Assembly: GCF_032362555.1 (NCBI RefSeq)
Contig: NC_083525.1
Coordinates: forward strand, 8,913,501 to 8,977,500
Source: Amyelois transitella
Taxonomy: Eukaryota; Arthropoda; Insecta; Lepidoptera; Pyralidae
Reading direction: 5' to 3'
Length of the DNA stretch: 64,000 nt
Below, piece by piece: positions 16,028 to 55,613 of this stretch. A program made the position numbers and the translations under genes. The notes under the pieces were generated by a model that made no database searches, was not told the origin of the DNA, and saw only the letters and a program-made list of their open reading frames with translations. Each line of letters begins with the position of its first letter. Within the stretch, counting starts at the first letter, position 1.

Positions 16028-19000
16028 TCAGTCAATGTAGAGTCTGACGAGCTCTCTGTCGGAGGCGGGGCAGCGGGTGACGGGGCAGGCAGAGTGCTGC
16101 CGCACGTGCCGAGAGATGCAAACGTAGCAGAAGATGTAGCTATAATAAATAAATACATACATATATACTTCCTACTGGCTTTAGTCCCGGTTTTATCACG
16201 TCTATATCTTTGCGGGATTGACAGAGCCAAAAGTCTTGAAAGTCTGACAGGCCACGTTCAGCTGTTTGTCGTAATGATAGAATTGAGATTTAAATAGTGA
16301 CAGGTTGCTAGCCCAACGCCTAAAAGATAAATCCCAAGTTTATGAGCCTATCTCTTAATCGCCTTTAACGACATCCATAGGCAAGAGATGGAGTGATCCT
16401 ATTCTTTTTTCTATTGATGCCGTGTATCACGCAAAAGTAGAAACTGTTTAAAAATAAAAGAGCCTCACTTACGGTGAGGGAAAACATCGTGAGCAAAACC
16501 TGCACATTCAGGCAACTGGATGTGTAACCATGATCGATCCAATACGGGTCAGGTTCCCCTGCAAAGGTTGCGGAGGTCAGATGGGAGTCGCTTCGTGTAA
16601 AAACCTGACTCACCCGATCCATGGTCACAGGCACACCCCGGGCTCCTCTCCAGAGTGGTGAGGATGCAACCGGGACTAAAGCCAGGCAGGAGACTTATTA
16701 AAAACTAAAAAAAATGAACGACAGAGAAAGAATAGTGCCGTGTGGTTCCTGGCACCAATACAAAAAAGAACCACTCCATCTCTATCCCATGGATGTCGTA
16801 AAAGGCGACTAAGAGATAGGCTTACAAACTTGGGATCCTTTTTTAAGGCGATGGGCCAGCAACCTGCCACTGTTTGAATCTCAATTCTATCATTAAGCCA
16901 AACAGCTGAACGTGGCCATTCAGTCACTTTCAAGACTGTTGGCTCTGTCCACCCCGCAAGGGATATAGACGTGACCATATGTATGTAGAGAAAGAGTAGG
17001 ATAGTTACCCGGACACCGGCAGCACGGTGGGGATCCTCCACGCGCGCCGGCACAGCGGACAGCGGTTCTTGTGAGCGGCCGGCTGCGGTCGCTAAAACAA
17101 TTTGTACACATACATACATACATATAATCACGCCTCTTTCCCGGAGGGGTAGGCAGAGACAACCTCTTTCCACTTGCCACGATCTCTGCATACTTCCTTC
17201 GCTTCATCCACCCTTTACCAGGACGTCCTTAATTTTGTACATAGAAACTTATATAGAATACTAGCTGTCCCGGCAAACGTTTTGCCATATAAAAATAATT
17301 TATTATAAAATATAAGTAGTATCGTTGAGTTAGTATCTCGTAACATAAGTCTCGAACTTACTTCGAGGCTAACTCAATCTGTGTAATTTGTCCCGTATAT
17401 ATTTATGATATTTATTTATTTATTATTATTTATAAATAATTTTTAGGTAATTTCTATTTAAAAAAAAATTAAGGGTGGACAACCCTAAGCACTAAGGTGT
17501 ATGTTTTCAGACCTACTCAATATGCTCACAAATTTTCATGAGAGTCGGTCAAGCCGTTTCGGAGTACGGGAACGAACATTGTGACACAAGAATTTTATGT
17601 ACGAGTATATATAATATACATGATTATTACCTATTATCACTTCGATTACACTTTCGCTCTGCAGTTTATTCGTTCTTTTTTGCACAACTTTCATGAAACC
17701 TTGTAAGTTCATTAACTGTGTTGTGCGCCAATAAATAAATAAACATTGGTCATTGGTCCTTCGGGCCGGATTCGGCGGTTGGATACGCTATTGTGCGCCG
17801 TCGAATATCGACAAGGCCACTTATACATATAAATAGTGGTAGTGGATTTAATTGGACTTATGTTGACGTCAATAAGTGATACCTGGTATCCAATTTAGAA
17901 AATAAATCTCTTCAGTTCTATTCTATTGACGGCCTCGGTAGTGCGCTTGTCTGTGAAACCAGAGGTCCCGGGTTCGAATCCCGGCCACTGCATGATGAGA
18001 AACGGTCTTTCTCTGATTGGCCTGGGATATTTATCTTTACAAGTATTTACCACAAAATATAATATCGTTGAGTTAGTATCTCGTAACACAAGTCTCAAAT
18101 TAATTACGAGGTTAATTGAATCTGTGTAATTTCCGTATCGCACACACGCGACTGAGGCATTAAGCGGGAGGTGATCAACAGCGTGGTGACTATGGGTAAA
18201 ATCCCCCAATTCTTGAGAGGCCTTAGTCCTGTCGTATTATCTATACCTACTAATATTATAAAGCTGAAGAAGAGTTTGCTTGTTTGAACGCGCTAATCTC
18301 AGAAACTACTGGTTCGAATTAAAAAAATTCTTTTTCTGTTTAATAGACCATTTATCGAGGAAGGCTTTAGGCTATTTAACATCACGCTGCAACTATTAGG
18401 CGCAAATAAATAATGGAAAATGTGAAAACAACGAGTAAAATTATTAATCCTTGAGGGCTTCAATGATGCCCAAAATAACTATTCCACGCGGGCGAAGTCG
18501 CGGGCACAGCTAGTCGTAGTACATGAGGTGTATGAATGCTGTAGAAGTGTACCTGCGGCGGGGGGGGCGCCGGCAGCCCCGCGGCGGGCGCCCCGCGCGC
18601 CTCCCACCAGCGCAGGAACTGCACGGCGAAGGCGCCGTACTCCACCGCGCCCAGGCACAGCGCGCCCAGCATCGGGAACGTTAGCGCGGCGCTGCTGTTA
18701 TGGCGAAAAAAAAAACAACTTTATACAATTTTCTATATACTTTATGAAATAAAATTGTAATCGATCGTTAAATACGAGGGCGACACTGAAAGTTTTTAGA
18801 ACTGGCCATTTGTTATATATGTATATAATAAAAAAATGAATTTGGATTTCAAAAATGGAACTCTTTAGCAATAATAATGAGTAAAAATTTCATTCAATTG
18901 TCATTATTTTAGCAATTTGGCGGCAAAGTGAAAATAATTCGTGCCAAAAATATGAATTTAACGCGAGAAAATTTTGGTGCAATGATTTTTTATGAATTTC

Positions 19001-22000
19001 GGTGTGAGTTAACTCAACAAGAAAGTTACAATAGCCTTCTATTGGTCTTTCATAATGAAGCCCCATCTCGTGCCACTGTTTACAACTGGTTCAATGAATT
19101 TAAGCGTGGTCGGTCTAATCTCACCGATGATCTGCGTGAGGGACGGCCTTCTACGGCGACGACTGAAGAAAACGTCAGTGTTGTGCGGCGTATGATAGAG
19201 GCTGACAAAAGAGTTACCTATCAGCAGATTCGGACAAGTCTAGGCATTGGTATGAGCCAAATCCATAAAATCCTCCATGAACATTTAGAGGTCAGGAAGC
19301 TTTGTGCCCGGTGGATACCCCATATTTGACTGAGACCCAAAAACTCCGTCGTGTTAATTGGTGCCGTGATATGATTTAAAATTTAACGGAGGTGACTCAA
19401 ATGCCGCATTCGACATACGGGTGACGAAAGTAAAAGAAAAACTTCGCGGTAAACGTTTTGTGAACGCTGAGGAAGCAGTCGCTGCGTTTGTAAGGGCCGT
19501 CGAAGAGACACCTAAGGAAGAGTGGGCAAGGTGCTTCTCCCAATGGTTCCATCGGCTGCAGCGATGTATTGACGTAAAGAGACACTATTTTGAAAAGATA
19601 TAATAAAACTAGTATTATAGTAGAATGCTCAGTTTTTGATTTTCTAAAAACTTTCAGTTTGACCTTCGTATTGTCATGATACTGCTGCAAATAGCGACAG
19701 CAGGTTGCCATCCCATTGATGCTATGGGGGATCAATGTATGACCGATAAAAGCCAAGAAGACTGTCCGTCTGTCAGTCAGTTTTATGCGACGGAAAGCAA
19801 TTTCAACTCACCCAAAGTTCCCCGTGACCATGTTCCTGAAGAGATCGGACCAGGTGTGATCGTCGGGCTGCGGCGCGGGCGGCGGCGCGTGTTTCAGCGA
19901 CAGACCTGGAGAGTTTCATTATAATGCGGCGACATCGCTTACGTCACACGCCATCAGCCAATCACAGCGCATTCGGCATTTAAAATCAGAGTTTCTACGG
20001 ATTGGAACATAAATCTTTGATTCAACATCGACTGTCGCTTTGTTCCACAGGCATAACACCTAGCCTGACGGAAGATCTTCCCTTTGGTGGCAGTCGAGCC
20101 CTAATCATTGCTTTCGCTACAATTAGTTTACTTCCATCATAAGACCCAGCTCAAAACAACAATAGGGTCTTGTGATTGTCTGTCTTCCCCGTAAGGGATA
20201 AAAACGCGGTATACATTACCTACCCATAAACATACTCAATTCTATCTTAAAGTCGTTCAGCCGTACCGTGTGGTTCCCGGCACCAGTGCAAAAAAAGAAT
20301 AGGTCCTATTCTACTCCATCTCTTTCCCATGGATATCGTAAAAGGCGACTAAGGGATAGGCTTATAAACTTGGGATTCTTTTTTTAGGCGATGGGTTAGC
20401 AACCTGTCCCTATTTGAATCTCAATTCTATCATTAGGCTAATTCTATCCTAAGCTAAATAGCTGAACGTGGCCATTCAGTCATTTCAAGACTGTTGGCTC
20501 TGTCTACCCCGCAAGGGATATAGACGTGACCCTATGTATGTATGTAAGTCGTACAGCTGAACGTAGCTTTACAGTGTTTTCAAGACTGTTGGCTACAAAG
20601 TATGTGTATACATTACCCAAGACCGCGAGCAGCGGGTCGGGGGCGGCGCCCCGCGTGAGGAAGGCGCCCCACCGCAGCAGCCGCCACGCCGACCACGACA
20701 TGTGCGCTACGCCGTACACCACCACAGCCGCGTGGCGCAGGCGGTCCTTAAAGCATATTTGGAAATTAAAAGTACTTCTACATATTATGGGGGTCCAAAT
20801 ACGTAATAGGTTACGTAAATCTACCATAAGCGATACCTTGTATCCTATTTTGATTACACCATGATCTAAACTATAACAAGATTATGAGAGACTCGTGTCT
20901 TACTAACCCACATACTACATAAGACATAACGAAAGATGTGTTTAAAAACAACAAGAATGTCAAGAGAACCAACAATGAGTTTGACTGAAGTGAATGATGT
21001 ATGTAGACGATGCGAAAGTGGTGTGATTTTACATATAATCACGTCTAAATCCCTTGCGGGGTAGACAGAGCCAACAGTTTTGAAAAGACTGATAGGCCAC
21101 GTTCAGCTGTTTGGCTTAATGATTATTTATTTGTTCATTTATATTATCACGTTTATATCCCTTGCGGGGAAGACAGAGCCAATAGTCTTGAAAGACTAAG
21201 AGACCACGTCCAGCTGTTAGGCTTATTGGTATAATTGAGGTTCAAATAGTGACAGGTTGCTAGCCCATCGCCTTAAAGAAGAATTCCAAGTTTATAAGCC
21301 TATCCCTTAGTCGCATTTTACGACATCCGTGGAAACAAGATGGAGTGGTCCTATTCTTTTTTTTATTGGTGCCAGGAACCACACGGTACGCGATTTTATG
21401 TATGTAAGAAATTTAAAAAAAGCTAATGCTCATAATTACCTTTCCCAACCGACCGTCCTCTTCATCTTCTCTCCACTTATCAATAACAGTCTCCAACTTG
21501 TCTTTCAAATACGGCAGGAGCACCAACACGGCCAGAGAAGCCTGCTCGAGACCAGGTGGGAGTCGGTGGTGGCCCGAGCTGAACTCTCCACTGACGGAGA
21601 CTGGCACTCGGAGCAGGCCGTAGAAACTCTCCGAGAATGATGCCGCTGGATTCATCAAAATCAATGTTTTATTCAGAAAATAGGACTTTGCAGGCACTTT
21701 TTCAGTCGTTTAACATAACACCTGTATTGCAAAAATATTTGGAAGTAAATTGTGTCCGATAATGTGTTGTTCTTTAATGGTCCACTATGTGTAGGGTACA
21801 TACATGAAGTCACGTCTATATCCCTTGCAGGGTAGACAGAGCTAACAGTATTGAAAAGGCTGATAAGCCATATTATTTGGCTTAATTATAAAATTGAGAT
21901 TCAAATAGCGACAACAGGTTGCCATCCCATTGATTAAAAGAAAAATCCCAAGTTCTCTTCTCTTTTTATTGGTGCCGGGAACCACACGGCATGTGTAGGC

Positions 22001-29000: not shown

Positions 29001-32000
29001 AAGTGATAACCAGTATCATTTTGCCCTTTATGTATGTTTGTCCGTGATTATCTCGCGTTTCGCTGAACCGATTTTGATGTGGCTTTGAGGAAAGTGTTTG
29101 TTACACTAAGGAGAATGTTTTAAAAGTTTAATCATCATCAAAAAAGGAGAATATTGATTGGAGGCGGTTTTCTTTTTTTACAAAAGTTATTGTAGAAGAT
29201 TGAAATGCGACGTTAAGCTGTATGGCTTCATGATGGAATTGAGATCCAAATAGTGACATGTTGCTAGCTCGGGCCATTGCAAGAGGAATCTCAAGTTTAT
29301 AAAAAAATATAAACAAAGACAAAGACATTGAGTGTTTCTAGTCTAAAGTACTAAAAATTATATTCTCAAATTTAGTCGAAAAAAACAAAATATTTGTTTC
29401 ATCGATACACGTTTTCGGACTCACCTCGACCTCCCTGAGCTGGTAGGGCGCGCCGCGGAAGCTGAGCGCGTCGAAGCCCTCGGCCAGCGCCAGCTGCGGC
29501 GCGCGCGGCTCGCGGCCGGCGCGCAGCCCGCGCGGGTACCCGCGGATGCTGCTGTTCAGGTACAGCATCTTGGCGCCGCGCTCCACCACGCTGAACCTGT
29601 TGTAACCGTGTTCACATATGTACTAATATCTTCTTCTTATGCGTTACACTCTTGTCAGAGTGGTCGTGTACAGAAGGGTTAGTGGCTCGCTTTACAATCC
29701 TTCGCCACTCGTCGCGCATCGCTGCCTTTCTGGAGCATTCACAGAGAGGGTCACCTAGGGCTGATTTTATTTGATCTGTCCACCTCATGGGTGACCTGCC
29801 TCGAGGTCTAATATAATATGCCTATTTAAAAACATACATATGTATGTATGTATTTAAATAGGAATATATTAGTCCATGATCGTGTCTATATTCCTAGCGA
29901 GGTAGACACGACTGAACCTATTGTAACCGTATTCACATACGTCCTACTAATACATATATACATATGATCACGTCTATATCCCTGGCTCTGTCTACCAGAG
30001 CCACCAGTCTTGAGAAGACTGATAGGCCAAGCTCAGCTGTCTGGCTTAGTGATAGAATTGAGATTCAAATAGTGACAGGTTGCTAGCCCATCGCCTAAAA
30101 GAGGAATCTCAAGTTTATAACCCTATCCCTTAGTTGCCTTTTACGACATCCGTGGGAAAGAGATGGAGTGGTCGTATTATTTTTGTAATGGTGCCGGGAA
30201 CCACGCGGCACCTATCCTATTTAAACCATTACTTTTATATATATCCATGTTTTTTATGTAGACAATGTGCGTTAGTCTTCGATTTACATATATATCACGC
30301 TTTTTTCCCGGAGGGGTAGGCAGAGACTACGTCTTTCCACTTGCCACGGTCCCTGCATATTTCATTCATTATATCCACATTCATAAGTCTCTTCATGCAA
30401 TACGAGCTTGCATGAAGAGATCATCATACTCCTTACGCTCTCATTTCCACTGCATTTATTCTGCTTTCGTGCTTCTTTTGCCATACCCAACTTTCACTCC
30501 CATACATTAATGTCGGGACCAACACGCCCCTGTGCACAGCCAGTCGAGCCTTTTTTTTGGATAGTTTCTGACTGCTCATAAAGGCATGCAAAGCTCCATT
30601 CACCATGTTCCCCGCGTTCACTCTCCTTTCAATATCACTATCACACTTGCCATCTGATGTAAACTTTGATCCTAGATATACAAACATATCTTGATCAAAT
30701 TAAGGACGTCCTGGTAAAGGGTCAGGTCAAAAGTACCCGAAACCGCCGAGCTTGCATGAAGAGAGTTATGAATGTGGATGAAGCAAAGGAAGTATGCAGG
30801 GATCGTGGCAAGTGGAAAGAGGTAGTCTCTGCCTACCCCTCCGGGAAAGAGGCGTGATTTTATGTATGTATGTATGTATATACAAACTCTTTCACTTGCT
30901 ATGAATATATATATAATAATACCTAGTTATGATTGGGATGTTGTTAAACCATATGACAATTATTAAGCGATATATAGGTAGTATCCTATAATAATGAATA
31001 AAAATTTTGAATTTTGAATTTGAATTTTGAATTTGAATTTTGAATTTGAATTTTGGATAGTATGAACTGGATGGCACAACACACTTACGTAGGAGCCAAC
31101 TGTATGAGCGCGCACTCCGGCCCCCCCCAGTACTGGTGGGTCTCCCGCCATTCCTGGGGGGCCGCCACCACCACCACCAACGGACCCGCGGACAGAATCA
31201 CCATCGTGGGACCTCTGGAAAGAGATTATATTTAGGTGCCGTTCCAAAGGTTGCGGAGATCAGATTGGAGTCGCTTCGTGTAAAAACCTGAGTCACCTAT
31301 TCCTTGGGGGTAGACAGGGCCAATAGTCTTGAAAAGACCGTAAGGCCACGTTCAGCTGTATGGCTTCATGGTGGAATTGAGATTCAAAAAGTAAAAGTTT
31401 GCTAGCCCATCGCCTACAAGAAGAATCCCAAGTTTATAAGCCTATCCCTTAGTCGCCTTTAACGACATCCATGGTTAAATATATATAGTGGTTCTATTCT
31501 AAAGTGACTCAAACTTAATTACACAAAATAAACTGAAGTGAAGTGTGTGTTCTTCATTCATCAGCAGCCAGTTGTTGGTTAGGTTGTCCATTGACATAGG
31601 CCGCCCCCCATCGCCTTCCACTCATCTCCATATATATTTAGCCGAATTTTCTCCATCCTTTAGGTAGATCGTCTATTTTATATATATTCAACGCTAACTT
31701 ACTAATTTACATCATGCTGCCTGGAAAAATCACGTACATATAGGTATAGAGTAGTGAGCCGTGTGGTTCCCGGCACCAATACAAAAAAGAATAGGACCAC
31801 TCCATCTTTCTCATGGATGTCATACAAGGCCACTAAAGGGATAGGCTTACAAACTTGGTATTCTTTTTTAGGCGATGGGCTAGCAACCTGTCACTATTTG
31901 AATCTCAATTTTATCATCAAGCCAAATATCTGAACGTGGCCATTCAGTCTTTTCAAGACTGTTGGCTCTGTCCACCCCTCAAGGGATATAGACGTGACCA

Positions 32001-35000: not shown

Positions 35001-38000
35001 AGAAAGCTACATCATCCCTGAGTAACACAGGCTATATTTAATTCCAGTTGTAACAAGATTTCAGCCTGTGGAAGAAAAAGCCCTGTCGAGATCATTAAAA
35101 AACGCTATATATAACCGAATTACACGTGGGCGAAGCCGCGGGCGGAAAGCTAGTACTAGTATATATAAAAAGTGTAACGGGAGCGATAATTTGGGCTCAG
35201 CCGTCCTCAAGGAGAAAATCTCCAGCCAGGTTGGTAAATGGTAGGTACAGTTTTACAATTTTTATAAATTACATCGATGTAACGTGCGCAGAATTTAAAT
35301 TTTTGCATAGCACGAATTCAACGATTAAACATTGATCCAATCAGAGCGAGCCAAGTGGTTGTATTCTTTTTTTTATTACTGCCCGGTTACCACACGGCAC
35401 CGTTACTTATAACTGGCGTTTTCGAATCTTAAGATCAGTTTTTAATAACTGAGTACTTCCCCTTAGGAGTATTATCAGCTAGTGACCACGCCTAATATTT
35501 GCAAGTCAATTGTTATCACTAAAATACGATTTGTTTGATCGATTAGCAAGCACTCAACAATAAATTAATCTCATAATGGCAGGTAGATAAACGTCATCAA
35601 TTACATGGTAGATTACAAAAGTCACGGCTATTTTACAATCAGTCAAGAATTGTAACACAATTAAAAATGAAAACAATTAAAAATGTCTGGACTTTAAATT
35701 TATCTCTCAACTAGCTGTGCCTGCTACTCCGTCCGCGTGGAATAGTTATTTTGGGTTATTTTTTAATTGCATCTCTTAACAAATAATGCATTAATTTCGA
35801 CCAAATTTTATTACCATAAAAACGGTTATAGAGTTTATCTTAAAAGATAGACATATAATGTCGCGGACATTTTTTTAGATTATTACAAGAGGAATAATTC
35901 TTTCATACATATATTTTTGGTATCTTGAACCGTTTTCGCAGCGCACACAACGGAAGCCCTCAAGGAAATATTCATCCTTTCCCCGTTTTTTTCACAGTTT
36001 CCATTATTTCTTCGCTCCTAATAGTTGGTAAAGTAAATGGTCTATTCAACACAAAAATAATTTTTCAATTCGAACTACATAGTTCCTGAGATTAGCGCGT
36101 TCAAACATACAAACAAACACACTCTTAGCTTTATAAAGATTATTATTGTGGAATAATAATAGTTGTCAAGAATGAATGTGCCGTGCGGTTCCCGACACTG
36201 ATATAAAAAAATAATAGGACCACTCTATCTTATTTCCATGGATGTCGTATAAGGCGGCTAAGGAATAGGCTTATAAACTTGAGATTCTTCTTTAAGGCGA
36301 TAAACTAGCAACCTGGCACTATTTGAATCTCAATTCTATCAATAAGCCTGACAGCTGAACGTTGCCTGTCATCTTTCAAGACTGCTGGCTCTGTCTAGCC
36401 CGTAAGGGACATAGACATGATCATATCAATGAATGACAAAAACGAGCCAAACAGTTGAACGTGGCCTATTAGTCTTTTCAAGACAGTTGGCTCTGACGTG
36501 ATTATACAGGGTGACATTTAATTCAACTGCATAAATTTAACTGTTAAGTGTTCATATTTCAGAAAGTAAGAAAAAAATAAAAGTATCAATATCCACGATT
36601 CTAAATACGTCATATCACGCCGGCGGAAAAGCGACGCTTAAGATTCAGAGGTCAACGACACAATTCATTCAGCTGAGCGATCTCGACAACTCTGTACTTT
36701 ACTTGATCTTGATACTAGAAAAATAATTTATTTTTCAGACATTTATTTACATGTTTAGTTTTAATTTCTTTTTGTTGTATTGGTCTTCAATAAAGCGTGT
36801 GACGTAGTTTTTGAGGGTTTTTTAAATGTGAAAATAATGACGTTTAATTTAAATAAAAATAGGCTCAAACGGCTCAGAAGCATGGGTATAGTCTATGTTT
36901 AAAAGGATGCAGTTGTTTTAAATGTCACCCTGTAGTATGTATGTGAACATTTAAGTGAACGGTAATCTCACCTATGAACAGGGAATATGAGCCTGGGACA
37001 GTTTTCCTCGAGCCAGCGCACCACGAAGCCCACGCTGTGGCTCTCCTTGTTGTTGAAACAGCCGCTCACCACCGCGCCCAGGGTCTTGTGGATCTGGGGA
37101 ACCACTAACTGATTGAAGCACTCCCTCGATATATATAAAGACTAGACCACATAAAGGTTTGGGATGTGCGTTTGATTTGTCAGTCAGTCATTCACTTCCT
37201 TTTATATATGTATTTAGATCTGATCTAGTAATTGTTCTCCTACAATCGTTTGACCTAAAAATCAAGACATCCCTTTTGGCATTGGTAATTTTGGAGCGAT
37301 TACACGACAGGACATTTTCAAACCATTCTCCTACAGAAAGAATCTAATGATCTAAGAAAGGACTTCTACATTCCAGTGGACGAATAGTTCCAGATGAAAA
37401 ATGGCCTGTCGTTCAATTTCCCAAAAACTGGTCATTTAGGGGGTCAATGGTACAAAATTAAAGGGACAATCAAGATATTTTGAAGGGAGACATAAAAGCT
37501 GTGAGAGCAAACTCTCTAGCAGCTTACTCCTGTGATTTGCCTCGTATACCCAGACGGTTGGCCATGGCTGGTGGTGGAAGAGTTAAGGCGTTCACTCACC
37601 ATGAGACAGGTTTGCGGGCCCTCAGGGTAGTGGTCCATGGACAGCTTGTAGCTGGTGTACAGTAGGCTGTTGAGATCTTCAGGTGTCACCGTGTTCTCGT
37701 CCGAGTCCGAGCTGAACATTCTGAAAGATATTCAGTTTGTTAGGGCCTTGAATTATCTGATAACATAGTCTCATATACTATTATTAATTTTTTTAAAAAT
37801 TGATAAGTATGTATAAAGCAAAAGAAGTTTCCTGCATCGCCGCCAGTATAAAGATGGAGTCTCAGCCAACCTGTTCATAAAGAGACGTCATTTTTCTGAT
37901 TACCTGAGGTAACTCTTCACTATACCGTAGTTGTCCAACATGGTTATGAAGCTCTGGCATTGAACCCTGAAGATAGCCAGTGAGATGTGCTGGTTCTTGT

Positions 38001-41000
38001 TCAACAAGGAATTTCCTTTGACTCCCTTAGAGACAATGCCCTTATTACCTGACAAAAGTCATCATATGATGGAATGAATCAAGAGTCTAAAAGGTTTTCT
38101 CTATAGAAGTTTTGTAAAAGCAAATAAACCAGGTGAGTTCATGGGAACCTTGGAAGGGGTAAACGTAGACTAACATACCTTTCTGGAGACAGAGGCAGGA
38201 ATATTCCTTACAGCGACGAGCTGCATGCATGACGAGAATGATGAACGTGGATGAAGCGTTAAAAGTAAGCAGAGATCGTGGCAATTGGATGTGGTCTTCC
38301 AATCATTCATACATACATAAATTTCTTTGTACACGCATATCTCCGGAACTACTGGACGGATTTGAATGAAACTTTTTTGTTGTATAGATAGAGCTCTAAA
38401 GGAAATATCTAAATGACATACATACATACATATATATGGTCACGTCAATATCCCTTGCGGGGTAGACAGAGCCAACAGTCTTGAAAAGACTGAATTGGCC
38501 ACGTTCAGCTATTTGGCTTAATGATAGAATTGAGATTCAAATAGTGACAGGTTGCTAACCCATCGCCTAAAAAAGAATCCCAAGTTTGTAAGCCTATTCC
38601 TTAGTCGCCTTTAACGACATCCATGGATGGAGTGGTCCTATTCTTTTTTGTAGTGGTGCCGGGAACCACACGGCACTCAAGTCTTCCAATCGCTTGCAGG
38701 AAAAAGCTGTTTTCTTCGTGACAGTGCCAATGTTACCTGACGTAAGTCTCCAGTATGACGGAGTCGTCCAATATGGCCAGGATCCTCTCGCACTGGACCC
38801 TGAAGGTGGCTAACGGAATGTGCTGGTTCTTGCACTTCCCCGTCCGGTGGATGTACTTGTAGAACTGCTTCGCCAGCTCGGGGTACATGGGGAACAGGTA
38901 CTTCTGGGGGAGACGATTAAAATTAATTTTACAATCATGAAAATAATGAGTACATACAAACATAAATCTCTTTATCCCTTTTCTTTATCCCTTGCGGAGT
39001 ACTGTCTACTCCGAATAATATAAAAAAAAGGGCCGACAGTCTTGAAAAGACTGAAAAGATACGTTCAGCTGTTTGACTTAATGATAGAATTGAGATTCAA
39101 ATAATGAAAGGTTGCTAGCCCATCGCCTTAAAGAAGAATCCCAAATTTATAAGAGTGGTGGAGGGGTAGGCAGTGATTTCCACTTGCTTGCCATGATCTC
39201 TGCACACTTCGTGCGTTTCATCCACATGCACTCTCTATGCAATCTCGTAAGTTTAGGATGGATACTCTTAGGCAAAAAATATGTTCAGTTCAATTTGGCA
39301 CGTTCCTTGGGGATTTCAGTTTTTATATTTTTTTTGTAAACTTAAAGTGTTTATAACTAAAATAAATAAAAGTATAACAGCTCATGTAGAATTTAGAAAC
39401 GTTTTCTCTAAATTCTTGATTATGAAAATATAAAGTGCCGTGTGGTTCCCAGCACCATTACAAAAAGAATAGGACCACTCCATCTCTTTTCCACGGATGT
39501 CGTAAAAGGCGACTAAGGGATAGGCTTATAAACTTGGGATTCCTCTTTTAGGAGATGGGCTAGCAACATGTCACTATTTGAATCTCAATTTTATGGCCTT
39601 TCAATCTTTTCAAGACTGGTGGCTCTGTCTACCCCGCTAGGGATATAGACGTGATCATATGTATGTATGTATGAAAATATAAACGCCACTTGGCCGACTT
39701 CGAACGGCATCACCACTCAGCGTACCTATAGAATTGAAACAACGAGCAACACTTAACTTAGAATATGTAAATTAAATAGAAGGATACGTACTGTGAAAGA
39801 CTTCTCAGTGACTCCATTGACGCCATCTTCCTTTTGAGATCTCTGCACGAGCAACTGCGAACAAAAAAGATAACAATTCATTTACGCATTTATCAGTAAA
39901 TATCTCTATAAATATTTGCTCAGGTGTATATCGGATATTTTTTTACAATTCGCGTTGACAAACTATTGATTACTTTCTTACTTACTATCAAAAATTAAAA
40001 ACAGTCGGGACTTTGCGCTGGTAACCACGTGGTAGAACAGAACTACCATATCTCTTTCCCATGTATGTTGTAAAAGACGACTAAAGGAACATGTGTATTC
40101 ATCAAGTGCAGTTTATACCACGATTTAACCTACTTAATTAACATTTTTAGTTTTTTAATTATAAAATTCGACATTTGACCTCCACCTTATTTTCTCCGTG
40201 TGGGGTATCGAAAGGCAGAGATCACAAGTTTAATCCACCACTGTCACCAGCGGACTAGATTTCGACCCCGGCGGAAACAAAACAACGAGAGTGAAAAGTT
40301 ATTTATCATAAAAAAGGGGGTACCTCACAAATAACACACCTAGCCTATGATCAAAAACATATTAAGAGAGAGTTAAGAAAGAAAAAAATCTCATAATTTT
40401 TCCGTTACGTACGTATGTTTTATTTACAACTAAGTTAATCAACCCTCTATTGGCAGATAAGTATTTGGCACTAGCGAGATAGTTGTGTTTGCAAACAATT
40501 GATAGTCTAACTAAATATCCGATTACTCGCAAATGTGATCAATGTCAGATAAGAATAGATATGAGAATCAGATTACACAGATTATGTCGATATCACATGC
40601 CTGCCTTGATGCCATGCCTTTTATGTCAACCTGAGTTGCTTATTTCTGTTGAAGTTAGTGGTATCAGTACAATACTAGTAGTGTTTCAAACAGAATGTTT
40701 ATTAATTTCAATTCTCTGTATAACAAAGAATCTCGATTAACTTTCTTTTTTTTACAATGATTATCGCACATTGTATGAGTTGTGAGAGATTACACAAATA
40801 CATGATTTTAAAATAAACTTTCAAATTCAAGGCATTCAACTTACTTTTTTGAACCGAGGGCAACACTTCATCAGCAATCCCAATTAAAACTGATATAAAA
40901 ATATAGATATTAATGATACAATATTTGTTCTTTCAGAACTTTTGTGTCTATTTTTAATACAAAATATCTTGTCTCTTTAAAACTATAAACATATCACTAA

Positions 41001-44000
41001 ACTTTGCGCTCTCACCTACCCAGCTTAATCAAAACTGGCTTACAGAATATACAATCGACTGAGGGTGATTACAATCGATCCATCACCGAGAGGTGGCCAG
41101 CACGTGGCGCGCGGCCACCTCGTGACAGCTCCGAGCAAACTTATAATTTTCCCAGATCACGCGGTGATAAAACAAGATAAAGTTAATTGTGAGAATCATA
41201 ACACACATGGCAAAGATTACGAGTAAGAATATCTCGTACAACCCTTCGGAAAGACGGAACCACTTCCAATTTTCCAATTGATTCCCATCCGGGAAATCGG
41301 AAACCGGAACCGGAATCAAACGTCCGGAAGTTGATTAAATATTTAAGATTATACAAATAGGCACGCCGAATTTTCAAAATCGGTGATGTCAGCTGTGGAC
41401 CTTTAACTTTTTTGAGTTTTATATCATCATCATACGGGTGTGTTCCCGGTTGGGGTACACTTCCTTAGTGATTCGACGAGGTTACTACTTTTACACAGAA
41501 CGACTTTCGCAACACAAAGGTAAGACTCAGAGGTAGGCCTAGATTTTATTAATAAGATCAATAATTTTATCATTGGCTACATGTACATATTTATGAAATA
41601 GAAAAATATACTTACTGCCGTGTGGTTCCCGGCACTATTACAAAAAAGAATAGGACCACTCCATCTCTTTCCCATGGATGTCGTAAAAGGCGACTAAGGG
41701 ATAGGCTTATAAACTTAGGATTCCTCTTTTAGGCGATGGGCTAGCAACCTGTCACTATTTGAATCTCGGTTCTATCATTAAGCCAAATAGCTGAACGTGG
41801 CCATTCAGTCTTTTCAAGACTGTTGGCTCTGTCTACCCCGCAAGGGATATAGACGTGATCATATGTATGTATGTATGTAAAAATATACTTACCCTATTTG
41901 GTAGTGCTGATAGTGAACTTAGTCGTCAACACACAAGAAGATAGGTGTGATCCAGTTTATATTTTACCAAAAGAAATAAATCAACGAAAAGACTACCAAT
42001 CAATTTAACTGAAACCTCAAACATCCATGAAATATGCTACTACAAATATTAACCAGCATTTCTTTCTTTCAATCAAACTTACATTAAAAGCATAAGCTAG
42101 TTGCTGTTTCCATAAAATTGTGGTAAGACAAACAGACCTTGCATGTAGAGTTGGGTGATGTGCTCTTATTGAAGCTGTTGACTTGTATGCCCACGATAGA
42201 GAGATGCAGTGACGCCCGCGCGGGCACCCAGCGCTTCAACCGAGTCCCCGTCATATCACTCCAAAAAGCTGGCCCAGTCGGTAGATACGATAATCTCAAC
42301 AAAATGGCGCAGCCGGTAGGTGCAATAATCCCAACAAAACGGCCAGCTGGTAGGCACAATTACATCATTTTATTCTTTAAGTTATTCGTTTTTTTTTTAT
42401 ATTGGAGATGTCCCATTCAACAAGTTTTACCTACAAGGTAAACTGTGCATATTGTTCATAAATTTGATCTATTCTCTGTTCCATTTATTTGAACTTTGAT
42501 GGCTGATATATGGTATTTTCCCACTGGCACAGTTATCGTTTTTGGGGCACTATTTTTTAAATAATAAGTGTCTCATTCGTATTTTCCATTTCGGCATTGC
42601 GGTCGCCATTATTATAAATTTCTTAGTTATTAATAAACGAACGTCAAAAATTTGCAAATATCAAGAATCAAAATTAACGGGTTTTCCACTGCTTCACTAT
42701 TACTACTTCAAAAATGTTATTATACAATTTTTAGCTTTATTATTCCAGTATCAATAGCTTTAAAAGTTCTCAATTTAATATTAAAATATAACTTTTTATA
42801 ATTACACGCGATCTAATACTAGTATTTCATAAGTTGACTTAGATTTGCGCGTAACAATCACAGAGTGAGCGATGGACAAATGTTTAGATTATGTGAATCG
42901 AAACATTTATCTGTGATTTCTGATAAAAGTAAGCCGTAAAGGTGGTTATATAAAGAACATGTATTAGTTTTAATTTTGCTTGCCGAACTTTTAACATTAA
43001 ATATTTATAAACAATTATATTAAACTGCGATGCATATATCTAATATAGACGTATGAATAAGAAAGAAGTTTAGTAACGGTATTCTTTGCATGGAGGGGTA
43101 CCTAACGTAACAGATAGTTAGTCCTGCTGGTGTTTACATCACACCAAATGACATTATCTTATTATGCCGTGCGGTTCTTGGCACTTTAGAATTCCTATTC
43201 TAAGAGATTCTTGTTGTAGGCGATGGCTTAGCAACCTGTATTTATTTGAAATCCATCATTAAGCCATAAAGTTGAATGTGGCCTTTCAGTCTTTTCAAGA
43301 CTGTTGGCTTTAGAGTATTTTCTTAGGTTTTAATAAAATAAAGTGTAAAATAGGACTAATTACACAAATTGAGTTAGCGTCGAAGTACGTTGGAGACTTG
43401 TGTTACGAGATACTAACTCAATAAATATGTACTTTTTTATAATAAATACTTATACCTTAAGATAAACATCCAAGACAAGGTAATCGGACCGGAGATAAAA
43501 TTAAATATTAAATAGCAGCTTTTAGTAGAAGAACCTAAATTTGAAGCCATAGGCTTAAGATATTGGCATATTGCTCTAATAGCGTGTTCAAACAAATTCT
43601 AAACAATTTAAATTCATAGGATTGTAGCAGCAGGAAAAAGATAATGTACCAATAACAATTATTTGCAATTAAACTGTGTACAAGTAATTGACGTGCCATC
43701 AAGTTAGGTACACAGATTTCAATAATAAATGCATTACAAGCCTTACTGATATGGATTATCTTATCAATTTAAAAACTTGCTGTCGTCCGCGAATTCCTAC
43801 GCCTGTCCTGGTAGCATGGCACGCGTCATGGCGTTTCATCGCGCGAAAAACTATCGCTGTCCCGTTTCACGTCATAATAAAAAGCGAAAGAAAGATAGTT
43901 TTCGAGCGATAAAATCGGCGTCAAGCGTGCCACGCTGTGGGGGGTGGTCCGCTTTGGTGAAGGAAAGCACAATACCGATGTGAATGGAGTGCATTGGAGG

Positions 44001-48861: not shown

Positions 48862-51800
48862 ATGGCGGTGAGGTGGTTGTCTCTCGTGGTGGTGCTGGTG
48901 ACAGCGGCGGGGGCGGTGGGTGATGTGCCTAGTACGTAGCCCTGTTTTTGTGTGAAACGTGTTTGATTAATTGAGCTCCCTAGGGTGGTGTGGGTGCAAC
49001 CAGGGTATACCCCAGGATTTTAGGTATAGAAATTTAAGATTTACCCCTAAGGAGTAGAATCATTGGATGCTCCTTATTTATAGGATAGGAGTAGCTAGTT
49101 ATATGATAAGGAAATATGGATTAAAATAAGATCGTATGTTGATTACTACATAAAAAGCAGCGAACCAGAAGGTGACCTTTTTGTCGGATGTGGCGGAGTT
49201 GTCATAAAAACACATGATTGTGACTTTATAAGTTGACTTTAGATCTCAAAAACAGCCATGGAGGATACAACTACACGCGAACGTGAGAATCATCAAAGGT
49301 TCATAGACTTATTGGTTTCTATCCTGGGGTGGTTTCTTCTTCTTACTTGTTTAAGACTCTGAAATTTGTTCGCACTCGATCGATTATCATTCGGATCTAT
49401 CTCTAGACTAAGCACAGGCCTCTCGGTCCTCATCAGATCGTCCGACTACCTTATTCTTAAAATTATCACGTAATTTTTTGTTGCAGTATCTGATGAGTTG
49501 TTCTACCGAGCGCCGAGACTGTTTCACCTCGACGACTACGACAGGTGCCAGTTCCAGAATGCCACCTTCTGCATGGGTGTCTTCGAGATCAGCCCCGAGG
49601 GTGAAGAAGGTTTCAAACTCTACCAAGAGATGATGGTGAGTAATGATAGTAAAATCTCTTATGATACAAAAAACCGTTGATATTACTTATGTAAAAATGG
49701 GTAGTTCAGTCATTGCTAAACCATGATTATTTTCAAATTGAGATTTATAATAAAGCACTTTCGGTGAAATTAATAATTTTATGATTAAACTTCCACTTCA
49801 TACATAAGCAGAATGATAATTCGTAGTTTTTTTAATGGTTTTCTCAGAAAGTATCCGAGTTCGGGTTCCGTCAGAACCGTTCAGTGCTGTACCGGGGGAT
49901 ATGCCTGGCTTCATGTGACCCAGGAGACCAGGACCCAGAAGCCAAATTGGAAGAAAAAGACCCAGCAGCGAAATTTGAGCGCTGCGTTGACCACGAACTG
50001 AAGAAGAAGTATGACTTGCGCGCGCGCCTGCAGAAACTCCAGTACTGTAAAAGCAAACAGAACCCAGGCATTCGTAAAAGGGATTTCACCGATTGGCTCC
50101 TGGCTGCTGTGGTCGTAATTATTGTATTATTGAACGTCGTTGGGACCCTTTACGATTTTAAGAAGGACCCCTGTGTCAAACGTAAGTCTTTCTTCATTGA
50201 TGTCTTATACAATATTATGTTAACATTACCCCATCTGATAATTATTCTAGCATTCACATCTTTTGGTCGAGTTCCCTTCTCCGTTTAGGTGTAGGTATTC
50301 ATTTTCAAGTTAATTTTCCTTCGTATATTGCTGTATCATTATTATAAACATTTGTGTAAGCTATTACGGAAACATGTCTTTCGAATCTTATTCAAATGAA
50401 CTCATTCATTCCGTCTTATTTTACAATAGATGGAAGTCTTTGAACTTTGTACATATACCTACTTAACAAAATGCATACGTTTACCTGTAGTACGTTAAAG
50501 ATGAATCGGTTATTATTACACGCATAAATCTACGCCGCTTTCCCGGAGTTGAGCAGGCAGCGACTACGGTTTTCCATTTGCCAATACCTTCGCATACTTC
50601 TTTGGTGTAAATCCCTGCATTATTTATTGTCGGTGATATGGACGCAAAAGGTCACCGTTCTCATGTTTGGTTTCAGCCAACAAGTTCCTCATGGCGTGGT
50701 CGCTCCGGAGCAACTGGAACCGCCTCACTGCCGTGCACAGCGGCGACCAGCGGCTGGACGCGCTCGCTCCCATCCATGGCATCAAGTGAGTATATATCAA
50801 TACTAATATTATAAAGCTGAAGAGTTTGTTAGTTTGAACGCGCTAATCTCAGGAACTACTGGTTCGAATTGACAAATTCTTTTTGCGTTGAATAGACCAT
50901 TTATCGAGGAAGGCATTAGGCTATACCTATAACATCACGCTGCAACTATTAGGAGCGAAGTAATAATGGAATATGTGAAATAAACGGGGAAAATTATTCA
51001 TCCTTGAGGATTTCAATGATGCCTAAAATAAGTATTCCACGCGGACGAAGTCGCGGGCACAGCTAGTAATGAATACATTGGTTGAACGCAAGACTGACTT
51101 CATCATGAACCTCGAACAACATGATTGATGTTCTATCAACATTAGAATAAAATTCAATGTCGGCTAATTTATTTGCAGAGCGCACATGATCCTGTTGGTC
51201 ATTTTCTCCCATACCACGTTTGCTATGACCATGGTCTACCCACATGATGAAAGGATAGTGGATGACGTGAGTTTTTTAAAGTACCTAATAACGAAATTAA
51301 GTCAATAATAAGTTATGACTTTGGCTAGCAGTGATCATAACATTAAAATTTATGCTCCTGATGTTTTTTTGTTAATTTCAGCTAAGCGTTGAATCAGACA
51401 TTATACAAATTTTATTTCAAGTATTGCTTTGATAACGTCTGCTATTTTCAGCTAGGTGATTCCATTGGGGCCACCATCGGCACCAACGGTACGATAGTAG
51501 TCCAGACATTCACCATGGTCTCCAGCTTTCTGCTGGGCTACATGATCCTCACCAACTTCGAGAAGGCGAAGAAGTCGCCCAACGTCAAGTACTGGCCGGT
51601 CATAGTTTTCAGCAGATATATGCGGTATGATTTCACTGTTTTAGGTACAAGTAAATTTCTAGGAGGGAAAGGTCGGAGTGGGAAGACCTAGACGAACGTA
51701 TCTTGATCAAATTAAGGACGTCCTGGTAAAGGGTCAGGTCAAAAGTACCCGAAACCGCCGAGCTTGTATGAAGAGAGTTATGAATGTGGATGAAGCGAAG

Positions 51801-54800
51801 GAAGTATGCAGAGATCGTGGCAAGTGGAAAGAGGTAGTCTCTGCCTACCCCTCCGGGAAAGAGGCGTGATTTTATGCATGTATGTATGTAAATTTCTAAA
51901 GAGTTGCGCATTTTCTTATTATAAGAGGTATCAATCCGTTTGTTCTCTCACAAACTAGTTTAACCTCGTGACATTAAGGCGATTATCACACGGCACCGCG
52001 CACCGCCGCGGAGGGCGGTGGCGGTAACGCGGATTTCGCAGCGGTGCACCGCGCGGTAAGGCGGTTTACGCGCCTGTACGCGCGGATGGATTTAACGCGG
52101 TTTTGACCAGTTTGATTGCAGACGCTGGCAAGAATGGACGCTGAAGTGGTGGCAGCAATCTGGCTTTTATGGCGCAGAAAGAAAAAAATAAGAAGATACT
52201 GGGTTCATCCATTTTTACGAAGCAGAACTCTAAATGGGTCATTCATGTTATTCTATATAAGTTTGAGAAAATACGAAGATAAATTTTTTAATTATACGCG
52301 AATGTCCACTTCTTCATTTGATAGCAGAGCGACTTTGAATCTCTGAAATAAACTTTTCGACATCGAAATCCATTTTTAAATTGCGACACGTCTTGCTTCC
52401 ACGATGTTCCGCGCGGTTATGCGGTGCCACGTGTGTGAGGTGCCGCCCCTCCGCGCTGCCGTCCGCGCGGAGAGGCGGTGGCGGCGAGAGCACCGCTCGA
52501 CCGCGCGGTCGGGCGGTGAACATGTGTTTAGTATCAACGGATTTAGTAGAGGCTTATGCGACATGAGAACCGCTTCACCGCCTGCCGCGGCGGTGCGCGG
52601 TGCCGTGTGATAATCGCCTAAATAGTCAGGCAGCTTCAAAACTGGAGCATTAAAAGGTTTGACCTGTTATGTAAATTACAAACAAACAAACATATTGTCA
52701 CGTCTTTAACCCTTCCGGTATAGACGAACCCTACAATATCAAAAAAAATGAAAGACAGACGGTTATTAATGAAAATAGTAATCAGATCTTTCCTCGCAGA
52801 ATGGCCCCGACTTTGATATTTGTGGTGGGTCTCACCGCTACCTGGATAGCAGGCTTAGCGAGTGGCCCCATGTGGAACCTGGTGGAGGAGTTGGAGGGTG
52901 CCTGCCGTAGGAAGTGGTGGTCACAGCTGCTCTTCATCAACAACATCGTGGACCCAGACGACCGTTGTCTTGTGCAGTCATGGTGAGGGATGTGTTGCTA
53001 CTAAATGATGCTTAAGTTGAGAAAAATACTGTAAACATTCTCTATAACTGCTCCTCTTTAATCTGAAATTCTGAGAGTAATCGTCATACTTCAAAATTAT
53101 CACAATATTCTGTACTATATATCATCGTAGTAGGGTTCCTGAAATTGATCTTTTCATAACCTCTAGTTGACACATGGTCCATTTTATAAAATACGTTCCA
53201 AATATCTTGAGTAGCAAGCTAATATTTTTCTTCTTCTATCTATGCATGGATTGGATGCTCGCGATTGTACGCTACCGCCCCGAAACATCCGAAACAGTTG
53301 CTAACCTAATGACCTGGTTCCAGGTTCTTCGCGGTAGAAATGCAGCTGTTCATGGGCGCCGTGGCCTTGGCTCTGCTGCTGGCCATGAAGCCTCGCTGCG
53401 CGCTGCGTGTCATCAGCGCGCTGTACGTCGTCACTTTGGGAGTCAACTTCGCGCTCAACTTGTCTTGGAAGATGCAACCCGTCGTTAAATTTGCTACCAC
53501 CGAGTTAGTATAGAAATCGATCAATTTATATACAGTTTTTTTAATCAATCATTTCAATGTAAATAGATAGGTACCTAGTTTGCTTTTGAAAAAGACCGTC
53601 CTTCCAACAAATGAACTTGTGGAAAAAAACGAACTTGGAGGATCGAACCGCTAAAGTTGATACATAAAATAGACGCCTAAATTTATTACATACATACATA
53701 TTATCACGTCTTTATCCTTTGCGGGGTAGACAGAGGCAACAGTCTTGAAAAGACTGATTGACCACATTCAACTGTTAGTTAGTTAGCCTAAATTTTTTTA
53801 TCGGCCCAAAAACATCACTATAATTTATTTATACTTCGCAGTCAAGTCCGAACGATGGCGGTGGGAGTGGACTCGTACACCTGGATGTTCTCCGCCACTT
53901 GGACCAGCATCCCCTCCACTTTGCATGGACTCTTCCTAGCCTTCCTCAAATACCAGCTGGAGAAGACTGGCTTTAAGCCTGACAAGCATAAGGTGAGCGT
54001 AACACGATGTATTTTGTTTAGTATAATTCAAAATGAGTATTACTTTTTTACTAGTTTTACTCTTTACTTCGTTTACCAGGTTGCAACTGGCCACTTACAA
54101 AAAAATAAAAAGAAATTTTTTGAGTTCACATGGATTTCCATTAAGTTATACTATTAGATCGATTTGATGTTTAGCATAAGTATTATTTTTTTATTAAAGT
54201 GCATGTTTTTAAGTTCAAATCAAAGTGCAGTTTCAGTTCATCAAGAGTTCAAATAACTATTTTTCAATGAGTGTTTAAACATATTTAAACCAGGTTGAAA
54301 ACATTTGGACACTGGATCTTTTCTTATAAGCAGAGATATTTCCTTTTCAGTCCACATTATTTCAAATTAACGATAATCTGTTCTGGATTTAAAATCTGTG
54401 TAGTCCAGATATCTGAACCAGGTAATATTTGTATTCATAAGGTTTATAAAGAGTTTTATATATCAATGCAGTGGATTACCAAGATGACATACATCCTGTA
54501 CGGCTGCATGATCACGTGGCTGCTGGGCGGAGACCTGGTGAAGCGGATAGACGACCCGTTCTGGCTGGCGGTGTACGCCACGCTGGACAGAAACGTCTGG
54601 AATCTCATGGTCACCTTCCTCGTCTTCGCTTATATCCATGGACAAGGCGGTGAGTGTTTCATATTTTCTTAGTAGGGTAAATATAATCTTAACTTCTGGA
54701 AAGCTTTGTTGTACAGTTTTGGTACCGAAAAAATATTACTACTAACTTTTCATTGCAACGCAAAAAGTCGCCAATAAAAAGAAAAATCTGTTCCACAACT

Positions 54801-55613
54801 AAGTTTGCACTGCCATGGCGGCCGAAAACGAGACGATATACCTATACGAGTTTTTTGGACTTGCCTGCAGGTTACGTGGTTCCATATCTGAGTTGGGGCG
54901 GGTTCCAGATCATGAGCCGCGTGGTGTTCCCGGCCATGCTGGTGCACTGGCACGTCAACCTCATGTCGGTCGCTGCCTACCCCGCGCCTGTCCACGTCAC
55001 CTATAATACTATGGTAAGTTGGATGGAGTCAGGTATCCTTTAGGGAACCATATTCATCTTTTAGGCGATTAAGATGACATTTGACAGTGATTGTTGCACG
55101 ACGGCCTCTGTGGCTCAGCGGTAGTACGCTTGTCTGTGACATCGGAGGTCCCGGGTTCGAATCCTGGCCAGGGCATGATGAGAAAAGAACTTTTTCTGAT
55201 TGGCCTGGGTCTTGGATGTTTATCTATATAAGTATTTATTATAAAATATAGTATCGTTGAGTTAGTATCTCGTAACACAAGTTTCGAACTTACTTCGAGG
55301 CTAACTCAATCAGTGTAATTCGTCCCGTATATAAAAATAAAGTTAAATCAGGTGATCATTCTGCGTGCAGCATGAAAAGGTGTATTTTGTTTAGTACACA
55401 AATCACTGTTTCGGAATCCTGTTTGGGTGGCTAACCAAATTTAAGCTCTTGGCGCTTCTTGCTCTTTAGGTATTGCTATATGTGTAGGTGTGAAATAACA
55501 ATAAGCTCCTATTTCAGATGCTGAATTTGGTGTCCAGCATAATGGTGACGATGATGTTCTCTATTCCGCTGCACCTGCTGGTGGAGCTGCCGATGCAGAA
55601 GATGTTGAGTTAG
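48862..55613 (+). CDS. NRF-6-type membrane O-acyltransferase (acyltransferase 3 family)
   Basis: Exons: 48862-48931, 49487-49635, 49848-50181, 50677-50785, 51179-51266, 51452-51624, 52800-52982, 53324-53503, 53842-53992, 54472-54649, 54871-55013, 55518-55613 (TAG); 617 residues, all junctions in phase. Residues 1-22 are a signal peptide (LSLVVVLVTAAGAVG). An extracellular NRF-like region with paired cysteines follows (DDYDRCQFQNATFCMG, GICLASCDP, RCVDHELKK). The first membrane span is WLLAAVVVIIVLLNVVG (~160-180). The acyltransferase-3 domain begins with IKAHMILLVIFSHTTFAM, whose FSHT histidine is the likely catalytic-site residue of the family, and continues through about ten spans to LHLLVELPMQKML. 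The family is named for the C. elegans nose-resistant-to-fluoxetine genes; insect members are many and mostly without known substrates. A tandem paralogue starts at 62538. Confidence 0.92.
50797..51066 (+). mobile_element. Helitron-like non-autonomous element, near-twin
   Basis: Same ends and same body as 18240-18513 (TTTGAACGCGCTAATCTC, ACCATTTATCGAGGAAGGC). In intron 4 of the NRF-like gene, ~10 bp after the exon 4 donor. Confidence 0.68.
51665..51890 (+). mobile_element. LINE 3' fragment in intron 6 of the NRF-like gene
   Basis: Starts in GRPRRTYLDQIKDVLV and runs to SGKEA stop, then GTGATTTTATGCATGTATG. Differs from the copy at 30688 by only a few bases, so both are probably young. Confidence 0.8.
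51978..52618 (+). mobile_element. Non-autonomous PIF/Harbinger-type DNA transposon
   Basis: Perfect 34 bp terminal inverted repeats (starting GGCGATTATCACACGG) are flanked by TAA on both sides (51975-51977, 52619-52621), the TWA duplication typical of PIF/Harbinger. Sub-terminal GC-rich GCGGT/ACCGC arrays extend the inverted symmetry. 641 bp, in intron 6 of the NRF-like gene. Confidence 0.93.
52116..52346 (+). pseudogene. N-terminal fragment of a Harbinger transposase
   Basis: 76 codons; the stretch RRYWVHPFLRSRTLNGSF followed by YEDKFFNYTRMS matches the conserved start of HARBI1-type nucleases (W-V-x-P, then FFN-F/Y-x-RMS). The catalytic DDE part is absent; the frame stops just before the right inverted repeat. 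The element is therefore a deletion derivative of a coding copy. Confidence 0.8.
53690..53790 (-). mobile_element. SINE-like repeat 3' fragment
   Basis: Tail, GCGGGGTAGACAGAGGC and AGTCTTGAAAAGACT only. Confidence 0.65.
55098..55345 (+). mobile_element. tRNA-derived SINE, best copy
   Basis: Box A-like TGGCTCAGCGGTAG and box B GGTTCGAATCC 50 bp later, then the same body as the copy at 17928. Lies in intron 11 of the NRF-like gene. Confidence 0.85.

Follow-up and report, generated by a model that had tools for sequence, protein, structure and literature searches.

Which enzyme copies a non-coding repeat that is very common in the genome of the lepidopteran Amyelois transitella, and what has passed between that repeat and the element that supplies the enzyme? 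The question is raised by a stretch of 64,000 nucleotides (hereafter the window; C21:8913501-8977500 of the host genome G000, 327 Mb in 33 contigs), in which a short interspersed element (SINE) of 263 bp and a long interspersed element (LINE) share their 3' tail and, as described below, their 5' head. The explanation that we favour, with a probability of roughly 0.66, is that the SINE is copied in trans by this RTE-like LINE or a close relative, and that the two elements have exchanged modules in both directions. The endonuclease (EN) and reverse transcriptase (RT) of the LINE or of its relative would act on the SINE RNA, with the shared 3' tail as the putative recognition end. On the SINE side the tail is of LINE type; on the other side the young LINE starts with a counterpart of the first ~113 nt of one particular SINE subfamily. 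The likeliest route is template switching during target-primed reverse transcription: near the 5' end of the LINE RNA the enzyme would jump onto a SINE RNA and continue to the 5' end of that RNA. Sharing of tails between LINEs and SINEs is already published for Lepidoptera (PMC3272025, PMC8010984), and the 3' part of the present case is largely of this known kind. The shared 5' end, which is absent from the first-pass annotation of the window, is the new part.

The common 3' end comprises about 38 bp plus ATGT units. An in-register match of about 45 bp had been claimed and is borne out: within the window the two tails align over 53-55 bp at 82-83% identity, ATGT units included (blastn, E 4e-9), and the 38/39-base tails without these units score 29, against a maximum of 19 among 5,000 dinucleotide shuffles (0/5,000 reach 29). 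Element limits in the window were set by target-site duplications. The LINE version of the tail, CTCTGCCTACCCCTCCGGGAAAGAGGCGTGATTTTATG, occupies 30827..30864 (+), directly followed by ATGT units, in a 5'-truncated copy at 30686..30877 (+) flanked by the duplication ATATACAAAC (30676-30685 and 30878-30887). Here the tail is coding: the RT frame ends ..VSAYPSGKEA*, its stop TGA lying inside GCGTGA, and the presumed recognition end overlaps the stop codon of the LINE itself. A second 5'-truncated copy at 51662..51887 (+) has the tail at its 3' end, between duplications GTAAATTTCTA (51651-51661 and 51888-51898), and a third at 17108..17235 (-), with an internal deletion, carries the same tail and a possible 8 bp duplication TGTACAAA, which a later duplication search did not recover. 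The first two copies had been placed at 30688-30884 and 51665-51890; both are present, with limits that need adjusting, positions 30878-30884 being duplicated target. The SINE reference copy, previously given as 41615-41878, is also present, with duplication-based limits 41616..41878 (+) between AAAAATATACTTAC at 41602-41615 and 41879-41892; its version of the tail is at 41827..41865 (+). To judge by sequence, the common tail adjoins the terminal repeats in the manner of stringent-type LINE/SINE pairs.

The similarity of the tails was judged on samples of copies, not on genome-wide consensus sequences: the survey covered 333 kb, made up of sequence chosen around LINE and SINE copies and of the window. 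Among 64 tails in LINE context the loop is TCC in 52, unreadable in seven and of other types in five, and none of the 57 readable ones has a GNAA loop. Among 158 tails in SINE context it is GCAA in 102 and unreadable in 25, and TCC is not found in the 12 commonest classes, which account for 156 of the 158 tails. A further 65 tails of unassigned context include 11 with GCAA and two with TCC. A tandem array at G000:C12:1100562-1101685 holds 11 matches to the SINE-type tail pattern at a spacing of exactly 109 bp. The tail pattern and the SINE core pattern had no matches in a viral contig collection, nor had the tail pattern any in a wider collection of genome contigs.

A two-part hairpin (GUCUA-CCC-GCAA-GGG-UAGAC) is predicted for the SINE tail within its natural context, with pair probabilities of 0.95-0.99 and folding z scores of -2.9 (84 nt) and -1.6 (41 nt). 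The isolated LINE 23-mer is predicted to fold as the SINE hairpin does (-6.9 kcal/mol). From SINE to LINE, one stem pair changes in a compensatory manner (U-A to C-G) and one is lost (A-U to A.G). The evidence for covariation of the stem, which the first-pass annotation had suggested examining, is mixed: the SINE tail is predicted to fold and one pair is compensated, but another is broken and the LINE tail in its context is not predicted to form this hairpin.

A full-length LINE of 3,424 bp with a single EN/RT frame is represented by copy L017. A host genome search yielded 39 LINE copies with upstream DNA, five of which (L015, L017, L022, L023 and L024) have an exact LINE-type 5' end; in L017, L022, L023 and L024 an open frame of 1,061 codons reaches the TGA in the tail. 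The LINE protein (P0002), one frame of 1,036 amino acids, matches RVT_1 (E 3.8e-41) and Exo_endo_phos_2 (E 3.1e-6) over their curated cut-offs and Exo_endo_phos (E 2.6e-4) under its cut-off. With the first 287 residues as query, the best 136 of 1,340 candidates all show 100% rounded identity, and 92 of these 136 copies have the 1,061-codon open frame. Genome searches score the best copies first, so that older LINE copies would go unlisted, and the first list of LINE copies was biased to those flanked by TATATAC, probably because very common words are skipped. An interior stretch of LINE DNA as query gave no hits, probably for the same reason. The shared tail is at the 3' end of all ten further LINE copies retrieved at both ends. 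The full-length LINE with an intact frame and this tail, for which the earlier annotation had proposed a search, has thus been found; the family is young and its full-length copies bear the tail. A search of the viral contig collection for relatives of the LINE C-terminus matched 43 stretches, none of which was confirmed.

At the 3' end of the LINE the stop TGA is followed by a few bases and then by ATGT units, which leaves a very short 3' untranslated region (UTR). Because of its single open reading frame for EN and RT, this short repeat-ended 3' UTR and a T-rich insertion signature, the LINE looks RTE-like rather than L2-like. RTE 3' ends are described as sources of lepidopteran microsatellites, with a very short 3' UTR and simple repeats (PMC2887409). 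Extra bases at the 5' junctions of three LINE copies (an inverted head-like piece in L084, a partial head duplication in L105 and a short filler in L096) are signs of 5'-end resolution.

The SINE family contains equally similar copies. The best 40 of 474 candidates match the window copy at 100% identity, every one at another place in the genome; four additional listed matches are short partial ones, and the first 250 nt are matched exactly in 30 of the 30 copies retrieved. Since copies of both elements are nearly or fully identical, the LINE and the SINE appear to have been active recently.

Both elements insert with duplications of 9-14 bp and a T-rich stretch upstream. Duplications of at least 9 bp were sought (8 bp for the three window LINE copies) and were recovered for 24 of 37 SINE copies and, in the same search, for 9 of 15 LINE copies; these nine, 11 of 39 from a second set and one found by hand (L024) make up the 21 LINE duplications, a partly biased sample as detailed below. 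At positions -12 to -8, T fills 67 of 120 cells in the SINE set, compared with 98 of 360 elsewhere, and 51 of 105 in the LINE set, compared with 98 of 315 elsewhere. T is found at -11 in 14 of the 24 SINE and 17 of the 21 LINE duplications. The T peak is at -8 in the SINE (17/24) and at -11 in the LINE, the two profiles overlapping without being identical. A similar T-rich signature is described for LINEs of the Bov-B type (RTE clade) and their associated Sauria SINEs, in which T residues lie about 10 nt upstream and the duplication starts with A (PMC13295347); here, however, the initial A is found in only 9 of 21 LINE and 15 of 24 SINE duplications.

The resemblance of the two elements extends to their beginnings. 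Positions 1-103 of the LINE match positions 1-113 of the SINE (41617..41729, +, in the reference copy) with 98 of 113 identical (87%) and 10 gap positions, and the middle ~97 nt of the SINE have no match in the LINE. Thirteen LINE insertions, each at a different site, begin with a LINE-type head and at the same base: the five copies with an exact 5' end and eight of the ten further copies retrieved at both ends. In one of the 13, L078, the first bases differ, and in L103 and L105 the first 11 nt of the head lie at the edge of the retrieved piece. In the LINE insertions without indels the head precedes the ATG by 290 nt. The remaining two of the ten further copies are truncated inside the 5' UTR (at about nt 118-121 and 235-244) with duplications of their own, and therefore say nothing about the head; the L101/L102 copy, whose 5' end is not clear, was excluded. 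In the sampled sequence the head lies directly upstream in all six copies that reach the start of the UTR, and the start of the LINE 5' UTR preceded by a non-T base has one exact match in the genome, a search in which diverged copies would not match. By chaining, the element would start at nt 1 in L014, L038 and L045, at nt 28 in L040 and at nt 42 in L036; these starts are taken as nearby SINE heads because only 5 of the 39 copies have the exact LINE-type head.

The direction in which the head was transferred can be approached through its variants. A survey of the 333 kb gave 192 head matches, of which 110 passed a length filter (5 LINE and 105 SINE heads, the two classes being well separated); the alignment contained 61 distinct SINE heads. 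The states 22T, 59C and 108C are present in the LINE head. All three states are found in three SINE heads (L050:1190, window 39437 and window 30209), two states in two, one in six and none in 50. Of these three, the window copies belong to SINEs at 39437..39673 (+), with target duplication TATGAAAATATAAA, and at 29950..30209 (-), and it is to the 22T/59C/108C subfamily that the LINE head is closest. The states 74C and 96G are the LINE head's own (0/61 SINE heads), and its gaps of 2 and 8 nt fall in columns that are gapped in 2-3 of the 61. The nearest SINE head differs from the LINE head by 2.9% and the SINE consensus by 5.8%. A midpoint-rooted FastTree tree of 63 tips pairs the LINE head with the nearest SINE head (0.84) in a clade of eight (0.91), inside the diversity of the SINE heads. 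These reach up to 18% from their consensus, and the five sampled LINE heads are 99-100% alike. Three substitutions in the head together mark one SINE subfamily, and the evidence, good but not conclusive over 103 sites, suggests that a SINE was the source of the LINE head. At the junction the 5' end of the SINE is retained and its 3' end is missing, unlike in ordinary SINE insertions, and on this ground the capture was probably by template switching from LINE RNA to SINE RNA.

It seems possible, though we put this forward only tentatively and with somewhat less than even expectation, that the SINE-headed chimera rather than a plain LINE produced the burst, that head and tail were exchanged reciprocally and that the head serves as a promoter or start region. 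The argument is that 136 copies have a near-identical coding start and that the head is found in all 13 resolved 5'-complete insertions; transcription would then have been gained from the head. Transcription of the LINE by RNA polymerase III (Pol III) through the head was considered separately and found no support: a shortage of T runs would be expected, and 13 runs of at least four T were counted, compared with a shuffle mean of 9.4. The head may provide a Pol II start or have another role.

Several observations weigh against the explanation proposed here or against parts of it. The loops of the two tails are consistently unlike, GCAA in the SINE and TCC in the LINE, and the LINE tail in its context is not predicted to fold as the SINE tail does (pair probabilities 0.03-0.09; z -0.1 for 83 nt and -0.8 for 41 nt). 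About 6 of 51 genome-wide pattern matches, as judged by eye, join LINE coding context with a GYAA loop (G000:C2:12447043, C15:1994968, C23:2676678, C28:1161102, C30:3309984 and C30:3733964), and another LINE with a SINE-type tail may exist or have existed. No duplication was found in 13 of 37 SINE copies, in 6 of 15 LINE copies and in 28 of 39 LINE copies of the second set, and the insertion signature is common to RTE LINEs in general. Moreover, 12 of the 21 LINE duplications were drawn from copies retrieved with a query that had TATATACA at its end, and this part of the sample is biased; the query selects the duplication itself and not the bases upstream of it, and the nine unbiased duplications have T at -11 in 6/9 and at -12 to -8 in 24 of 45 cells, compared with 46 of 135 elsewhere. 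As to the head, its alignment is short (103 sites) and the tree was rooted by midpoint only, the LINE state 71G occurs in four SINE heads outside the 22T/59C/108C subfamily, and no older headless LINE relative was found in best-first searches, which would not list old copies. The LINE contains T5 and T6 runs at nt 262 and 301. T runs of such length are expected to stop Pol III, which argues against a full-length Pol III transcript of the LINE. Finally, the window SINE with its head gave no Rfam match to tRNA or 5S at E values up to 10; for lepidopteran SINEs tRNA identities of 58-66.5% are given (PMC3272025, PMC8010984).

A rival explanation is that another RTE LINE, so far unseen and with a GCAA loop in its tail, mobilises the SINE, and that the present LINE is only a cousin of it. 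The loop classes are unmixed among readable tails of known context, the loop mainly sets specificity in zebrafish L2 elements (PMC4176376), and the matches that join LINE coding context with a GYAA loop are what such a partner might leave. We nevertheless regard this as rather unlikely: no GNAA loop was found among the readable LINE-context tails of the 333-kb survey, and both the insertion signature and the timing fit this LINE. The six GYAA loci are few and may be hybrids of LINE and SINE tails, or what is left of an older LINE that had a SINE-type tail; of the two compared with a longer tail pattern, the C15 locus has the shared-type continuation and the C2 locus does not. The claim of the first-pass annotation that this LINE is the likely source of enzyme for the SINE can accordingly be kept in a weakened form. 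The shared tail, the intact young LINE, the young SINE and the similar signature speak for it, while the loops differ and the LINE stem is unsupported in context. As the loops differ consistently, the LINE may be a relative of the true SINE partner, and the enzyme could come from this LINE itself or from one closely related to it. Chance or convergence between a coding motif and a microsatellite is hardly credible as the origin of the 3' similarity. Some letters of the LINE tail are indeed constrained by the protein, but no shuffle reaches the observed score even without the ATGT units, both elements have the match at their extreme 3' end, and there is homology at the 5' end as well.

The two shared ends, at similar identity (87% and 83%), would also be expected if the SINE were a deletion derivative of the LINE that retained its 5' and 3' ends and lost the middle, the head being the LINE's first; bipartite derivatives of RTE elements, as in hagfish, are said to be common (PMC7245038). 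Such an origin is improbable here. The derived states of one SINE subfamily recur in the LINE head, which adds two of its own, the SINE heads are far more diverse than the five near-identical LINE heads, and the SINE middle has no counterpart in the LINE. We give as little weight to the view that the head is a SINE inserted upstream of one LINE master and transcribed with it, without any template switch. SINEs are dense in the window, and the descendants of such a master would look the same as those of a template switch; however, the head stops at SINE nt 113 without SINE 3' end or tail, and SINE insertions with target duplications here retain their 3' end. As the head ends inside the SINE, this view needs an added deletion. 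Copying in trans by this LINE or a close relative, with exchange of modules both ways, is thus the explanation retained.

Several systems resemble this pair in part. The L2-clade LINE UnaL2 shares its 3' tail with a SINE. In trypanosomes the autonomous and non-autonomous partners ingi/RIME and L1Tc/NARTc share a 5' segment; these elements are of a different clade, and the shared segment is the promoter of the autonomous element. For the zebrafish L2 LINEs, as for UnaL2, a recognised LINE 3' tail ending in short repeats is described, as here, and the stem-loop is proven; here, in contrast, the stem is unsupported in context for the LINE tail (PMC4176376). A further system is the pair HaSE1/HaRTE1.1 of Helicoverpa armigera, in which the SINE 3' end matches an RTE LINE over 43 bp at 82% and the LINE was proposed as partner (PMC3272025). 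It differs by its TGA-repeat tail, compared with ATGT here, and by a LINE copy of 1,645 bp whose 5' end may be missing; the parts of that paper considered here describe no SINE head on the LINE. PxSE5 and PxLINE1.1 have 3' ends 84% identical over 43 bp, with a partner role proposed, and PxLINE1.1 is a 3,228-bp element with EN and RT and an ATGT-unit end (PMC8010984). Together with SfSE1 they resemble the present case in that (ATGT)n-tailed lepidopteran SINEs have a LINE-like 3' end, but the 5' regions of SfSE1, PxSE5 and PxLINE1 are reported as strongly diverged, whereas here LINE and SINE share their 5' end. The same source proposes that the conserved central part of lepidopteran SINEs is LINE-derived; if the same SINEs are concerned, the direction here looks opposite. 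An RTE partner is also suspected for the butterfly Metulj SINEs (PMC6685494).

Chimeras are known as well. Hagfish SINEs hold 5' and 3' parts of an RTE LINE, and chimera formation was proposed for them (PMC7245038); there the SINEs took LINE parts, whereas here the evidence points to a LINE that took a SINE head. Mammalian U6/L1, tRNA/L1 and Alu/L1 chimeras, for which template switching or RNA ligation is proposed (PMC13174262), likewise have a small RNA or a SINE fused 5' of a LINE. Each U6 chimera usually propagates no further, and the success of LINEs through 5' UTR swaps is put forward in that paper as speculation (PMC13174262). In contrast, the SINE-headed LINE is multi-copy, with the head in 13 insertions and the coding start shared by 136 copies, and would be a propagating counterpart to that speculation. 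A LINE that begins with the head of its SINE is the reverse of the known loan of tails. A search that left most subscription papers and Repbase outside found no published account of a SINE-headed LINE family that propagates. With its identifiable donor subfamily and intact copies, such a LINE allows tests of promoter function, of partner specificity and of the sequence of events.

The window contains further traces of both elements. At 39029..39247 (-) a LINE 3' end (to ..CTACCCCTCC) runs straight into a SINE body, a joint that could be due to a template switch between both RNAs or to nesting of one insertion in the other. Blastn showed six older 3' fragments of the LINE in the window; one, at 30294..30400 (-), has 88% identity and the same CTACCCCTCCGGG tail. 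At 30980-31060 a short tandem AT-rich repeat (gaattttgaattt) lies next to a LINE copy. At 55104-55175 and 17932-17992 there are a tRNA-His called by ARAGORN and a weak Rfam tRNA match (31 bits). At 20549-20594, 36435-36495 and 21141-21030 (-) a 5'-truncated SINE that starts near SINE nt 160-175 lies no more than about 20 bases beyond a SINE copy; these pairs may be template-jump dimers or may reflect a preferred truncation point.

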